64,000 bases of DNA. Source: Myxococcus stipitatus (GTDB lineage Bacteria > Myxococcota > Myxococcia > Myxococcales > Myxococcaceae). Below are positions 27,732-34,732 of the stretch, one piece after another. Both the position numbers and the translations under genes were made by a program. The notes below the pieces were generated by a model. The model saw nothing but the letters and a program-made list of their open reading frames with translations, ran no database searches and had not been told where the DNA came from. Location: the NCBI RefSeq assembly GCF_038561935.1, contig NZ_CP102770.1, forward strand, positions 7,130,001-7,194,000, given 5' to 3'. How positions within the stretch are numbered: position 1 is the first letter of the stretch; every line of letters starts with the position of its first letter.

Positions 27732-28874
27732 TCAGTGGGCCGTCGAGCCAGGGGGCTCGATGCGCTCCACCGCCTTCTGGACGGCCGGATCTCCCGGCAC
27801 GTCAGGTCCAAGCTGTATGTAGGACAGTAGATGCGTCCGGGGCGCCGGGGTTGCGCCCTCCGCCGCTGTTTTCTGCAGGGCGGTGCGCCGGGCCTCCAGG
27901 CTGGCGACCGCCGACTCGAGCGCCGCCTTCTGCGCCGGGTCCGTCGCCTGGGTGATTCGCTCCTTCGCCCGGGCGAGGTTGGACTCCACCAGGCGGAGCT
28001 GGTCCTTGGCGCGCGCCTGCTCGGAGATGTCCGTGAAGCGGCCGGGGCCGTTGATGGCCAGCTCCAGCTTCGCGACCTGCCGGCCGCGCTCCCCGGGCTG
28101 CAGCAGCGTGGTCATCCCCACCCGCTGCGAGATGCCCGAGCCCCGCCCGTCATGGGACTGGAGGACGAAGTCCACGCCGTCCAGGCCACTGGCCAGTTGG
28201 AGCAGCTCGTCGTAGGGCACGGCGGCGAGCAGCACCACCAGGTCCACGTGCTCCTCCTGACGCAGCCGCTTCGCCTCGGCGACCACCGCGGGCGCGACGG
28301 GCAAACCCCTCCGCATCCCGGGCGTCTTGCCCTTGACGCTGGGGTCCATGGGCTCCGGCTCGGCCTTCGCGGGGGAGGCGCCCACCACGCCGACCTTGAA
28401 CCCGCCCACCTGCGTCACCAGCGACGCGGGGAACAGGAGCTTGCCCCGCGCATCCACCAGGTTCGCGGACAGCAGCTTCATCTTGGACTTGCGCGTCTGC
28501 TTGCGCAGGAAGTCCACGCCCAGTCCCAGGTCCCGGGTGCCCACCGCCATGGCGACGGTGCCTTGTGCCTCCATCTGCGCGAGCAACAGCTCCGCGCGTG
28601 CACGGGCATCCGGGGACTCACCGCTGTCCCGGCTCCTGAAGAGCGCGTTGCCCGCGTCCAACACCACGAGCGGTACACCCTTGGCGCGCTCCTGCTCTAT
28701 CGCGACTTTTCGTCTGGCCAGACCGCCAGACGGGTTGTGTCGTCAACCACAGGGGGCGATTTCGCCCCCATTGTCTCCGGTGAAGAGCAGCACGAGCTGC
28801 TTGGGCGCGGCGCCCGCCACCAGGGGCAGGAGCCAGAACGCCAGCGCGGCGAGGCGCGGGGAACGGATGCTCAC
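27732..28874 (-). CDS. Candidate selenoprotein: UshA-like phosphoesterase-fold protein with in-frame TGA (Sec44)
   Basis: The GTG at 28874 overlaps the stop of the upstream gene by 4 bp (GTGA). Translation gives a signal peptide (MSIRSP... GAAP), then [14 protein letters not shown] and a TGA at 28745-28743, then [12 protein letters not shown] in the same frame, continuing to 27732 (380 residues). Related bacterial proteins carry PCGC followed by GGLARR, so TGA occupies a conserved Cys position. An 8-bp stem with a GGTCTG loop starts 10 nt after the TGA. The body resembles 5'-nucleotidase/metallophosphoesterase proteins (VVLDAGN), but the GNH[DE] motif reads GTRD and the later GHxH is missing, so metal catalysis is doubtful. 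A coiled-coil-like segment lies at ~residues 300-350. If the TGA is a plain stop, the gene is broken. Confidence 0.75.
28711..28745 (-). promoter_or_regulatory. SECIS-like element: UGA plus stem-loop
   Basis: On the minus strand: TGA (28745-28743), 10 nt, then CGTCTGGC (28732-28725), loop GGTCTG (28724-28719), GCCAGACG (28718-28711). The stem is perfect and the loop contains GGUC/GGUCU as in E. coli formate dehydrogenase SECIS elements, 18 nt after the UGA, within the accepted bacterial spacing. The stem forces AGA and CGA arginine codons, which are rare in this genome. Confidence 0.7.
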
Positions 28875-29719
28875 TTCTTGCCTCCCTTCTTCGGGGGAGC
28901 CTTGGACTTGTCGAGCTCCGCGATGCGCTCCTTGGCCGTCTTGGCGGCGCCGGACTTGGGGTAGCTCTTCACGAGCTCCTCGAGCGCCATGCGCGACTCA
29001 TCGCGCATCTTGAGCTGGGCGAAGCACTCCGAGGAGCGCAGGTACGCGTCCGGCGCGGACGGCGTCTTCGGGTGGTCCTGCACCACCTTGCCGTACTCGA
29101 AGAGGGCCTCGCGGCACTTGGACTCGGAGAGGTACGTCTCTCCCAGGCCGTAGTGGGCCTCGCCCACCAGCGGGTCCTTGGTCCACTTCTTCATCAGCTC
29201 GGTGAAGAGCTGCCGGGCGACGAGGACCTCGCCGGCCTTGGCCTTCTCCTTCGCGAGCGCGAGGAAGTCCTTGGGGTTGTCGGGGCGCTTGAGCTCCTCG
29301 GCCTTCTTCTTGGCCTCGGCCTCCTTCACCGCGGCGGCGCCCTGCATGGCGAGCAGCTTCTGGTCCTGCGCGCCCAGGGCCGTCTCCAGCTCGGTGATTT
29401 TGTGGATGTACGTCTCCACCTGGCCTCGGAGCTGGGAGAGGTCCTCCATGGTCTTCTGGAGCTGGATGCCGATGTCCGCGTCCTTGCGCCGCGCGGCGGT
29501 GTCCAGGCCATCGAGCGCCTTGGTGACCTCGGCGACCTTCTCATCGATTTTCGGCAAGGTGGCGGCCAGCTGCTCGCGCGCCTCCTTCAGCTCCGCCTGC
29601 ATCTGCGCGGAGTCGGCGCCGAGACGGTCGACCTTCGCCTCGAGGGCGCGGCCGCGGTCGGCGGGATAGAAACAACCAGGGAGCGCCACGAGCAGGGCGA
29701 GCAGGACGAGCCTTCGCAT
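28871..29719 (-). CDS. CpoB/YbgF-like coiled-coil and TPR lipoprotein
   Basis: 282 residues. Signal peptide with lipobox LVALPGC, then an extended coiled coil (about residues 25-130, rich in Glu/Lys/Ala heptads), then TPR-like repeats with YGLGETYLSESK and YLRSSECF, ending in a Lys/Gly tail. This is the layout of CpoB/YbgF, the periplasmic partner of Tol-Pal, although no tol genes are in the window. Its stop overlaps the GTG start of the candidate selenoprotein gene (GTGA), so the two are translationally coupled. Confidence 0.75.
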   Translation of the reverse strand: MRRLVLLALLVALPGCFYPADRGRALEAKVDRLGADSAQMQAELKEAREQLAATLPKIDEKVAEVTKALDGLDTAARRKDADIGIQLQKTMEDLSQLRGQVETYIHKITELETALGAQDQKLLAMQGAAAVKEAEAKKKAEELKRPDNPKDFLALAKEKAKAGEVLVARQLFTELMKKWTKDPLVGEAHYGLGETYLSESKCREALFEYGKVVQDHPKTPSAPDAYLRSSECFAQLKMRDESRMALEELVKSYPKSGAAKTAKERIAELDKSKAPPKKGGKK

Positions 29720-29809: not shown

Positions 29810-31075
29810 TCAGCGAGCACCACTCAACGATTCCAGGCGCCCGGCGGCGTGCGCACACGCCACTTTGAGGCGGCTGGGGTTGAGGAAGAACGGGACGGGG
29901 CGCGAGCGGCCCTCCTCCAGGGACACCAGGGCCCGGCGATACTCCACGACCGCGTCGAGGGGGCGGCGGCACTGCTCCAGCAGCAGCCCCAGCAGGTACC
30001 GCGCGGCCGCGTGGTCCGGGTCCAGGGAGAGACACCGGCGCAAGTCCCGCTCCGCCACCGCGTCCGAGGCCCCTGACGAGGCTCCATCCAGGACACACGC
30101 GAAGAGCAGGTCCGCCTCGGTGAAGGCCGCGGCGGAGGCCCATGCCTGGGCGGGCGCTTCGGGGCTCCGGGGCTCCGGTGTCGGCGACGTGTCCTCCCGT
30201 CCCGAGGGCGCGCTTCGCTCCTGGCTCCGGAGCCCTCCCACTCGGACGTGGAAGAAGGCCGACGTGGTGCGCATCACCGTCAGCGCCGGAGGCACCTGGA
30301 GCAGCGGCTCCGACGAGGAGAGCACCAACGTGCCCCCCGGCACGAGGCTGTCCGCCAGCGCCGCCACCGTCCGATGGAAGGACTCCACCGTGAAGTAGAT
30401 GAGGACATTGCGGCAGAAGACGATGTCGAAGCCCCCCTCCTCCGCGGGCCGGGGGTACGGCGTGTCCATCAGGTTGTGGACCTGGAAGCTCGCGCGCTCT
30501 CGCAGCGCCGACACCAGCGCCATCCGAGAGCCCTTGGGCATGAAGTAGCGCTCGCGCGTCCCGGCGGGCACGCGGCGCAGTTGCTCGGGAGTGAACGACA
30601 GCGAGCACGCGCGCCGCAGCGCCGCCTCGGAGATGTCCGTGCCCAGCACGGTGCTGCCCGGACTGGCGCCGGACTCGGCCAGCAGCATCAGCAGCGTGGC
30701 CACCTCCTCGCCCGTGGAGCAGCCCGCGCTCCACAGACGCAGGGGCCGCCCTCCCGCCCTCGCGACCAGCGGCGCGAGCACGTGCTCCCGGAAGTCGTTG
30801 AGCTGCACCTCGTCGCGGAAGAGGTCCGTCTTGTTCACCACCACCGCGGAGATGAGGCCCTCCAGGTCCGCCGCGCCCGTCGGGGACTTGAGGAACGCGA
30901 GGTACTGGTGCGGCGTGAGGCCTCGGCAGCGCTCGGCGAGGCGATCATCCAGCCGTCGAATCTGGGGGCCGCTCAACGCCATGCCCGTACGCGCCGTGAG
31001 GAAGGCGCGCACGGAGGCCCATTGCCCACCCGAGGCCCGCACCGGCGGCTCAGCGCCCCACTGCGAGCGACTCAC
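29810..31075 (-). CDS. cheR3: CheR methyltransferase with C-terminal TPR-like tail (Che3 system)
   Basis: 421 residues from a GTG at 31075 that lies inside the end of cheB (26-bp overlap). The methyltransferase core has [13 protein letters not shown] (SAM loop), LGTDIS, and CRNVLIYF, all standard CheR motifs. After ~residue 290 there is a Pro-rich linker and a helical TPR-like stretch ([26 protein letters not shown] region), which may help recruit it to receptors. It methylates glutamates on the MCPs of the same operon. Last gene of the operon. Confidence 0.87.
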
Positions 31076-32105
31076 CCCGGGCCAGCCGCGCCAGCGAGGC
31101 GGCGACTTCGTCTCCGTGGATGAGGTGGTCCACCGCCTTGCGCTCCACCGCCGCGCCCGGCATGCCGAACACCACGCAGGACTCCTCGTTCTGCGCCAGC
31201 GTCAGGCCTCCCGCCTGGCGGATGGCCAGCAGTCCCTCCGCGCCATCGGCGCCCATGCCCGTGAGCACCAGGCCCACCGCGCGCCGACCATACGTCCGGG
31301 CCGCGCTCTCCAGCAGCGTCGTCCCCGACGGCATGTGCCCGTCCCGCTCCACGCCGGCCTTGAGCGCCACCCGGCCCCGGAAGGGAATCACGGTGTGCTG
31401 CCCCGGCGGCGCGATGAGGACATGGCCCGGCATCAAGGGCTCACCGTCCTGCGCCAGCCGCACCTTCAGCCGGCTGGCGTTGGCGAGCCAGCCCGCCAGC
31501 GACTCGGCGAAGGCGGCGTTGATGTGCTGGACGATGACGATGGGCGCGGGGAAGTCCGCGGGCAGCTCCGAGAGCATCCGGTAGAGCACCTGGGGCCCGC
31601 CGGTGCTGGCGGCCACCACCACCACGCCCATGGACACCGCGGGCAGCACGGACGTCGTCACGCGCGGCGGGGTGATGCCCTTCTGCGGACGGCGCAGGTG
31701 GCGGATGACGCGCACCGAGGAGAGCAGCTTGATCTCCCGCACCAGGTTCCACGCCTCGGGGCCGGCGTCGATGGCGGGCTTGATCTGCAGCGCGAGCGCG
31801 CCCAGCTCCAGCGCCCGGTACGTCAGCTCCGGCGCCTGCGAGCGAGGGTCCGCCGTGAGCACCAGGATGGGCGTGGGGCACTCGGCCATGATGTGCTCGG
31901 TGGCCGTGAGCCCGTCCATGACGGGCATGTCCACGTCCATGGTGATGACGTGGGGACGCAGCTCCTTGGTCATCTCCACGGCCTGCTTGCCGTCCGCGCA
32001 GGAACCGACCACCTCGATGTCGGGGTCCTTGCTCAGCGCCTCGCAGATGAGCTGTCGGCAGATGAGTGAGTCATCGACCACCAGCACCGACACTTTCTTG
32101 CCCAT
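31050..32105 (-). CDS. cheB3: CheB methylesterase/response regulator (Che3 system)
   Basis: 351 residues from the ATG at 32105 (GGACAGGGC upstream); a longer frame from 32147 is less likely. Receiver domain with VVDDS and phosphoacceptor Asp57 in [12 protein letters not shown], then the methylesterase domain with the catalytic triad in AASTGGP (Ser), QHIN (His) and GMGADG (Asp). It removes receptor methyl groups after phosphorylation by CheA. Overlaps the downstream cheR gene. Confidence 0.9.
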
Positions 32106-32185
32106 GCCCTGTCCATACCCCGTGCGCGAGGCGCCGAGTATAGCCAATGCACTGTCCTGTCCTCAGGAGGTTGCGCGAACTGCCC

Positions 32186-34732
32186 TCAGGACAGCAGTCG
32201 CCCCACCACATCCACCAGGTCCTGGCGCACCAGGTCCCCCTTGGTGATGTAGCCGTCCGCCCCCGCCGAGAGCCCACGCCGCCGGTCCTCCTCACCACCA
32301 CGGGTGGTGAGAATGACGACGGGCAGGCGGGACTGGGTGGGATGCCCCTTGAGGCGCCGGGTCAGCTCCAGCCCGTCCATGCCTGGCATCTCCAGGTCCG
32401 TGACGACGAGGTCCACCGGGGGGCCCTCCAGCACGTCCAGCGCCTCCGCCCCATCGCCCGCCACCACGGTGTCGTACCCCACCGCCTCCAGGAGGCTGGA
32501 GATGAGCTCCCGCGTGAGCGGTGAGTCGTCCACGACCAGGATCCTCCGGCGGCGGGACTCGGGCTCCACGGGCGTCGAGCGGGGCAGCTTCACCGGAGAC
32601 GTCCCGTGGGCGCTGGCCGTGAGGTAGGCGGCGGAGAGCACCATGGCGAGCCGGCCATCCGCCAGGGATGTGGCCCCGGTGAGGTGGGCGAAGCGGGCGA
32701 GGACACCTCGAAGGGGGAGGATGGCCTGGACGCGCTCCTCCAGGACCCGGTCCACCACGACGGCGGCGGCCCCGCTCTGGCTTCGGACCACCAGGACGAG
32801 CTCCCCTTCTCGCACCTCCCGCTCGGGGGCGAGGCCCAGGAGCGCCCCGAGGGAAGCGAGGGGCAACACCCTCCCCTCCACGAGCAGCGCGGGGCGGCCG
32901 GCCACCTCGCACAGGTGCAGGGGCTCCACCTTGAGGGCGCGGGAGACGTGGGTGGCGCTCAGCGCGAGTGTCTCGTGGCCAACCTGGACGAAGAGCAGGG
33001 GGGCCACGGTGAGGGAGACGGGGACGCGCAGCTCGAAGATGGTGCCCCAGCCCGGGGCGGACTCCACGCCCACATCGCCGCCCAGTCCCTGGATGGAAGC
33101 GCGCACGGCGTCCAGTCCCACGCCCCGGCCGGACAGGTCGGTGACGACGTCGCGGGAGGTGAAGCCCGGCAGGAAGATGAGCTCGCGGGTGGCGGCGTCG
33201 GAGAGGGCGTTGGCGGCGCTCTCGTCGAGGATGCCTCGGCGGACGGCCACCCGGCGCAGCTCCGCGGGGTCCAGGCCCAGGCCATCGTCCTCGACGCGGA
33301 GGATGATGCGGCTGCCCTCTCGCGCGGCGCGCAGCGTGAGGCAGCCTCGCGGGTGCTTTCCGGAGGTCACCCGGTCGACGCGCGTCTCCAGGCCATGGTC
33401 CAGGGCGTTGCGCACCAGGTGCATGAGCGGCTCGCGCAGGGCCTCGACGACGGCGCGGTCCGCGCGGGTGTCCTCACCGTCGACGACGAGCTCCACTTCC
33501 TTGCCCAGGGCGCGCGAGAGGTCGCGGACCATGCGTGGGTAGGGCTCGAAGAGGACGGAGAGCGGGAGCATCCGGAGGCCCTGCACCTCCTCGACGACTT
33601 GTCCCAGGTCTCGCAGCTCCTCGTTGGACAGGAGCTTGGATTCGCGGTGGAGGTCGGCGGCGAGCTCCTTGGCCGTGCCCAGTCGCGCCACCAGCGCCGC
33701 CGCGGCGGGCCCCAGGTCCTCGGCCTCGCGAGCAAGCTGCCCCAGCTCTCGGGCCAGGGCCAGCCGTCGCGCGTGGGCCCGCTCGCGCCTCCGGGCAATC
33801 TGGGCGAGGTTCGTCACGGCGCTCGTCAACAGGTCCAGGCTCGCCACGTCGATGCGCACGGCGTCCAGGCGCGTCTCGGGTTGCCTCGGGGCGGAGGGTG
33901 TCTTCGCGGCCGACGAGCGAGGGCTCGAGGAGGACACGGGGGACGTCGTGAGCAGGAGTCCTGGGCCAGGCATGGCCGGGGTTCCTCGCGCGGGCGTCGC
34001 CTCCACTCTCGGCGCGGAAGGCCATCCTCGCGTCGCGGCCGTCGTCGACGTGCCGGATGTCGGCAGGGACGTTCCCCCCTCGGCTCGCTGCGTGACGGGA
34101 GAGGGGTGGACTGTCCCAGCCCGCGCTCGACGAACGTCTTCCTCGATGCCCCCTTTGCGACCGGGTCCTGGCTCGCCTTGAACCGGCGGCCCGGCGGCGA
34201 CCGGAACACGCGCCTCCCCTGCCCCCTCCACCCGCTTCGCCTCGGCCCCCACGGCGGCCGCACGCGCGAGTGCGACCGACGACGCGCTCGGCTCCTGCGC
34301 CTTGGCTTCACCGCCCTCGGACGCCGCCACCGTGGACGACAGGCGCTCCGCCTCGGCTCGAATACACGCCTGGAGCCAGCCGACCAGCCGCTCCACCTCA
34401 GGCGAAGCGGTCCCCGAGGACGGCGGCGCACTCGACAGCAGCAACACCGCATCCGCCGCGCTCAGCAGCGCATCCGTGGAGTCGGCGGACAGCAGGTAGC
34501 GCTTGGGCTCCGCGCAGCGCACGAGCTCTTCCATCTCGTGCACCAGCGAGTTGATGTCGTCGAAGCCCATCATCCGGGCCTCGCCCTTGAGCCCGTGCAG
34601 CTCGCGCAGCGCCCCGCGCCCGGACTCCACGTTCGCCCCCGCCTCCAACTCCATGAGCGCCCGGTTGATGCGCTCCAGACGCACCGTCACCAGGTCCCGG
34701 AACTGCCTGAGGAGGCGCTCGCTCGGGTTCAC
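32186..34732 (-). CDS. cheA3: Hybrid CheA histidine kinase with C-terminal receiver (CheA3-type)
   Basis: 848 residues. Hpt domain with phosphoacceptor His46 in ELHGLKGEAR; a long Pro/Ala/Ser linker (~130-285); P3/P4 kinase with LVRNALDHGLE (N-box), ILRVEDDGLGLD (G1) and SGRGVGLDAV (G2); a P5 CheW-like domain; and a C-terminal receiver with VVDDSPLTRE and VVTDLEMPGMDG. The CheY-binding P2 domain is not evident. Its start overlaps the MCP gene upstream by 4 bp. The order and hybrid receiver match the Che3 system of M. xanthus, where CheA3 modulates CrdA. Confidence 0.9.
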   Translation of the reverse strand: MNPSERLLRQFRDLVTVRLERINRALMELEAGANVESGRGALRELHGLKGEARMMGFDDINSLVHEMEELVRCAEPKRYLLSADSTDALLSAADAVLLLSSAPPSSGTASPEVERLVGWLQACIRAEAERLSSTVAASEGGEAKAQEPSASSVALARAAAVGAEAKRVEGAGEARVPVAAGPPVQGEPGPGRKGGIEEDVRRARAGTVHPSPVTQRAEGGTSLPTSGTSTTAATRGWPSAPRVEATPARGTPAMPGPGLLLTTSPVSSSSPRSSAAKTPSAPRQPETRLDAVRIDVASLDLLTSAVTNLAQIARRRERAHARRLALARELGQLAREAEDLGPAAAALVARLGTAKELAADLHRESKLLSNEELRDLGQVVEEVQGLRMLPLSVLFEPYPRMVRDLSRALGKEVELVVDGEDTRADRAVVEALREPLMHLVRNALDHGLETRVDRVTSGKHPRGCLTLRAAREGSRIILRVEDDGLGLDPAELRRVAVRRGILDESAANALSDAATRELIFLPGFTSRDVVTDLSGRGVGLDAVRASIQGLGGDVGVESAPGWGTIFELRVPVSLTVAPLLFVQVGHETLALSATHVSRALKVEPLHLCEVAGRPALLVEGRVLPLASLGALLGLAPEREVREGELVLVVRSQSGAAAVVVDRVLEERVQAILPLRGVLARFAHLTGATSLADGRLAMVLSAAYLTASAHGTSPVKLPRSTPVEPESRRRRILVVDDSPLTRELISSLLEAVGYDTVVAGDGAEALDVLEGPPVDLVVTDLEMPGMDGLELTRRLKGHPTQSRLPVVILTTRGGEEDRRRGLSAGADGYITKGDLVRQDLVDVVGRLLS

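Follow-up and report, generated by a model that had tools for sequence, protein, structure and literature searches.

A predicted UshA-like selenoprotein of Myxococcus stipitatus and a second hairpin ahead of its UGA codon

A minus-strand reading frame of Myxococcus stipitatus that runs from GTG 28874 to 27732 is interrupted solely by a TGA at 28745-28743 (codon 44), and the question it raises is whether this codon breaks the gene or is read as selenocysteine (Sec), as the original prediction had proposed. Positions refer to the window, by which we mean the whole stretch of 64,000 nucleotides that was analyzed. All coordinates of the frame and its single TGA were reproduced, and the start is indeed coupled to the preceding lipoprotein gene, as had been claimed, with the GTG at 28874 overlapping the stop codon of the minus-strand TPR lipoprotein gene at 28871-29719. 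Because the Sec machinery is present, the TGA lies at a Cys position, a SECIS hairpin is conserved and covaries, and both the TGA and the GGUC loop of the hairpin are lost in one informative genome (G095), we conclude from the sequence comparisons that GTG 28874-27732 is almost certainly a real selenoprotein gene, with the TGA predicted to be read as Sec. The features of the gene and its upstream partner are as follows.

27732..28874 (-): predicted selenoprotein gene, UshA-like, 380 aa, Sec at codon 44; the frame is open but for one TGA, and orthologues with TGA at the same codon occur in 90 Myxococcota genomes
28743..28745 (-): predicted Sec-UGA (codon 44) of the Pro-Cys-Gly-Sec motif; aligns with TGC/TGT of the Cys forms
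28806..28874 (-): signal-peptide-like N-terminus, codons 1-23, with an AGA-A-type cleavage site, as read from the translation
28871..29719 (-): TPR lipoprotein gene (TPR_6), the conserved upstream partner; adjoins nearly all family-level orthologous loci

The distribution of the TGA was examined among relatives of the gene. The 33 relatives found by a scan of GTDB have TGA at the site, with a single exception: of the two Archangium lansinium copies, one has TGC. Among 195 Myxococcota genomes, 90 carry the TGA form (matches at E 1e-28 or better, and including G057, the TGA of which was seen only on reading the locus); selA was found in 88 of these 90, and the two genomes without a selA match are both incomplete (80% and 87%). 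Four of the six Cys-only genomes have no selA and two still have it, a count that leaves out G108 since its match stops short of the motif. The association of TGA with selA (Fisher 7e-5) is descriptive only because the genomes are related. The codons that replace TGA at the site are exclusively Cys codons (TGC/TGT), so that the proposed alignment of the TGA with a conserved Cys, rather than with random codons, was confirmed.

A maximum-likelihood tree requires seven or more Sec/Cys changes along branches with good support; when independent pairs on this tree were compared, selA never moved in the direction opposite to the Sec/Cys change, with pairs too few for significance. The clearest individual case is G095, a complete genome from a genus in which the six other genomes all have TGA and selA. 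Synteny is retained in G095 (CheB, CheR, TPR lipoprotein, the selenoprotein orthologue, L31, and methyltransferase), the site reads TGC, and GGC-GGC-TTG replaces GGC-GGT-CTG, which removes the GGUC loop. Neither selA nor tRNA-Sec scored over its cut-off in G095; its relatives G096 and G097 have tRNA-Sec. Closely related genomes offer a clean natural experiment in which Sec/Cys changes occurred in place, repeatedly, and in some cases with loss of the Sec machinery. Genomes of the Archangium type, and some of the same genus, also carry Cys paralogues (L025/L092, L093, L094, L095, L096, and L098) that are not located near the TPR lipoprotein gene and have neither of the two hairpins described below; from these, duplication plus Sec-to-Cys change looks recurrent. 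Two distant Sec forms deserve separate mention. The first (L130, G011:C129:26630-27586) has a cytochrome domain and its genome, 92% complete, has tRNA-Sec and no selA match, reflecting either an assembly gap or a different SelA. The matched stretch of the other (L120, G163:C6:227126-228094) holds a TAG besides the TGA.

In bacteria, SelA and SelD charge tRNA-Sec, and SelB binds the SECIS hairpin. The source genome (10.17 Mb, rated 100% complete) was searched for selA, selB, selC, and selD, and all four were found: selA at 560 bits (curated cut-off 268), selB at 317 bits with a neighboring segment (cut-off 242; a 638-aa frame), selD at 385 bits (cut-off 125), and a single tRNA-Sec match over the Rfam gathering score, for which ARAGORN gave the anticodon UCA. 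Formate dehydrogenase, a common bacterial selenoprotein, had no member over the cut-off, and none with an internal stop, in this genome. From these parts and the established pathway, the UGA at 28745 would be decoded as selenocysteine by tRNA-Sec(UCA), with SelA and SelD responsible for charging and SelB for delivery upon recognition of a GGUC-loop hairpin downstream; the product would then be exported to the periplasm by way of its putative signal peptide.

The downstream hairpin assigned to this role is the following.

28711..28732 (-): bSECIS hairpin, 8-bp stem, loop GGUCUG, beginning 10 nt after the UGA; identified from its fold, from GGC-GGT-CT invariant in 54/54 Sec forms, and from covariation

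Its stem (28732-28725 paired with 28718-28711) is a perfect 8 bp, as originally described, and the element agrees with the published bacterial SECIS model (PMC13188914) in its 16-37 nt spacing, in a G within the first two loop positions, and in a minimum free energy below -7.5. The stretch comprising the TGA and this hairpin folded with z -2.5 against dinucleotide shuffles, and the region 28782-28704, which includes the upstream hairpin, gave -38.6 kcal/mol (z -4.0). Folding energy alone is a weak discriminator, not outstanding in many species under synonymous resampling, because resampled sequences in GC-rich genomes often fold as well; the Rfam scan of the region gave no match. Conservation is far more telling. 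GGC-GGT followed by CT was present in all 54 distinct Sec forms, always 18 nt after the UGA, and GGT was kept in 2 of 14 Cys forms. TGA forms retain the hairpin and Cys forms have lost it, contrary to the refuting pattern named in the original prediction (no hairpin in orthologues, with TGA replaced at random). Across 32 distinct hairpins, 83% of the stem cells were paired, 24 cells showed changes on both sides versus 6.8 ± 2.6 in shuffles, and the covariation score exceeded every slid control. The codon GGT51 is 100% invariant among synonymous codons of the orthologues. The suggestion that rare AGA, CGA, AAA, and ATA codons cluster in and after the stem under RNA constraint held for AGA54, a stem codon with 95% invariance among synonymous codons, but not for CGA55, AAA56, and ATA59, which lie at or after the stem end and are only 74%, 50%, and 44% conserved. 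A covariance model of the hairpin (R1) matched only the 28711-28732 site across the source genome, the next match having an E of 0.9; R1 is family-specific, so the genome may encode other selenoproteins.

A second perfect inverted repeat, also of 8 bp and overlooked in the original prediction, precedes the UGA at 28769-28752.

28752..28769 (-): upstream hairpin GGGGGCGA-AA-TCGCCCCC, its 3′ end 6 nt short of the UGA; under synonymous resampling no other stretch of the gene gives as strong a local-fold signal (mean z -3.5), and Cys forms have lost it

Synonymous choice is nearly invariant over codons 33-43, except 35 and 38, and it is these codons that form the hairpin. Local folding was evaluated by redrawing synonymous codons according to the codon usage of each gene, for 19 orthologues in 167 windows; the upstream hairpin gave the peak (mean z -3.5 over the 19 orthologues, with a spread over the 167 windows of 0.5), and the SECIS was the second-strongest signal of the gene (mean z -1.6). 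The upstream hairpin is present in the family-level Sec forms, and covariation support for it within the family is thin. We speculate that in this lineage it acts at the RNA level in connection with Sec decoding, perhaps by slowing the ribosome before the UGA or by keeping the SECIS from mispairing. The more specific proposal, that it is a new cis element acting as a 5′ partner of the SECIS to raise or regulate UGA redefinition in a GC-rich lineage, is made tentatively and strikes us as possible rather than probable.

The encoded protein was assigned by profile and structure comparisons. It is homologous to the UshA-like (seleno)protein model NF041198 over profile positions 18-374 of 519 (E 3e-53), at 181.3 bits for the full protein and 178.9 for the mature form, under the curated cut-off of 275. 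The N-terminal domain and the PCG[U/C] motif of NF041198 are present and the C-terminal multiheme domain of its full-length members is missing, the match ending at position 374; the cytochrome c554-type domain PF13435 was found only in L003, L101, L103, and L130 among the relatives examined. A Pfam search with the protein gave no family, and the SoxB thiosulfohydrolase model TIGR04486 scored 50.6 bits, under its curated cut-off of 550. An AlphaFold2 model (mean pLDDT 87.5, with a weaker Sec loop at 61-74) had as its closest solved folds UshA, other 5′-nucleotidases, and SoxB (Z 29-30 over ~270 residues), which places it within the metallophosphatase fold of UshA and the 5′-nucleotidases (Z 30). 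The Cys-Gly-Sec motif falls in the loop that follows strand 1, a site of metal ligands in active nucleotidases. The columns invariant over 55 diverse relatives are CG[U/C], the GG after it, and three others. The same genome also encodes, around C1:7891604 (L003 and L090), a relative of the Cys type (PCGC) that includes a fused cytochrome c554-type domain, and a heme-less Sec form and a heme Cys form therefore coexist.

Several other explanations of these observations were weighed. Were the gene decayed or missequenced, the TGA would be a nonsense mutation and the frame would restart at GTG 28667, from which a mechanical open reading frame of 311 aa does exist; the chance of this is negligible, for this TGA persists across dozens of species at protein identities that fall to <40%, codons 26-43 ahead of the TGA are intact and conserved, and only Cys codons alternate with TGA at the site. 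Conservation thus refutes decay, and the recurrence of the TGA in dozens of independently sequenced species excludes the sequencing error that resequencing had been proposed to reveal. Read-through of the UGA as another amino acid (Trp or a near-cognate), or regulated leaky termination, would likewise conserve the frame without any selenocysteine; we regard it as very improbable, given that TGA is replaced by Cys and not Trp, that it accompanies selA and tRNA-Sec, and that a conserved SECIS-type hairpin disappears together with the TGA.

Granted that the TGA specifies Sec, the upstream hairpin and the protein each admit a competing account. The hairpin could be unrelated to Sec, either arising incidentally from the NGGE(I/V)APCG peptide under GC-rich codon usage or serving as some other regulatory or pausing signal, and we rate this only just short of an even chance. 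The hairpin is absent from most of the distant Sec forms (L108-L110, L120-L125, and L129), and it is therefore a lineage-specific addition and no general requirement; only one clear compensatory change was seen, in L031 and alongside an amino-acid change; and the peptide also differs in most Cys forms. However, the same peptide with resampled synonymous codons folds far more weakly, and three Cys forms that keep the NGGE peptide (L025, L097, and L099) have lost the hairpin (z 0 or above), with L093 intermediate at z -1.85. As for the protein, an active metal-dependent nucleotidase or phosphatase with Sec as a metal ligand would fit the match to UshA (Z about 30) and the Asp of motif I, which is retained in the close family. 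This we consider unlikely. Of the motifs that we take to be the metal ligands of the 5′-nucleotidase family (GD, GNHE, SHLG, and GHSH), GD reads GN, GNH[DE] reads GTRD, SHLG reads LAAV, and GHSH reads SHDG; moreover, the C-terminal substrate-binding domain is missing, and the invariant core is CG[U/C]...GG. Given these alterations and the position of Cys-Gly-Sec in the nucleotidase metal-ligand loop, the protein is probably no phosphatase but a disabled metallophosphatase scaffold that carries a site for selenol/thiol redox or sulfur-transfer chemistry. Of the redox or metal motif suggested originally for Sec44, the redox role is plausible and in keeping with the family; no test supported a role of Sec in metal binding.

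The selenoprotein probably works jointly with its co-encoded partner: nearly all family-level orthologues, the in-place Cys forms as well as the Sec forms, have the TPR lipoprotein gene in front of them and the Cys paralogues do not, a conserved linkage that suggests joint function. Directly upstream of the pair, at 29810-34732 of the window on the minus strand, lie CheR-like, CheB-like, and CheA-like chemosensory genes, and the order of CheR and CheB is kept in many orthologous loci.

The short, cytochrome-less myxobacterial subfamily, its operon, its machinery-linked and repeated Sec/Cys switching, and the upstream hairpin appear to be new; searches of the open-access literature turned up nothing relevant on a myxobacterial selenoprotein or on any upstream stem-loop in Sec genes of bacteria. 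A myxobacterial selenoprotein subfamily is thereby added, and because the curated NCBI model scores it under the cut-off, its genes are likely called as truncated genes in annotation. UshA-like CxU selenoproteins have been described from ocean metagenomes (PMC2398784) and are included in a 2026 review (PMC13188914). The protein described here shares with that type (NF041198, COG0737; PMC2398784, PMC13188914) the same Pro-Cys-Gly-Sec/Cys motif and the occurrence of known Sec and Cys members, but it scores 181 bits versus 275, lacks the cytochrome c554-type multiheme domain, and has a TPR lipoprotein partner and an upstream hairpin. It resembles the UshA 5′-nucleotidase and SoxB in fold (Z about 29-30, ~270 residues) and in sequence, yet falls far under both curated cut-offs, has altered metal-ligand motifs and no C-terminal domain, and carries Cys-Gly-Sec instead. 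The downstream element fits the published bSECIS model in spacing, loop G/GU, stem length, and energy; in this lineage, unlike in the reviewed model, which has a downstream stem-loop only, a second hairpin precedes the UGA and, as a candidate second cis element of bacterial Sec insertion, is open to direct test.
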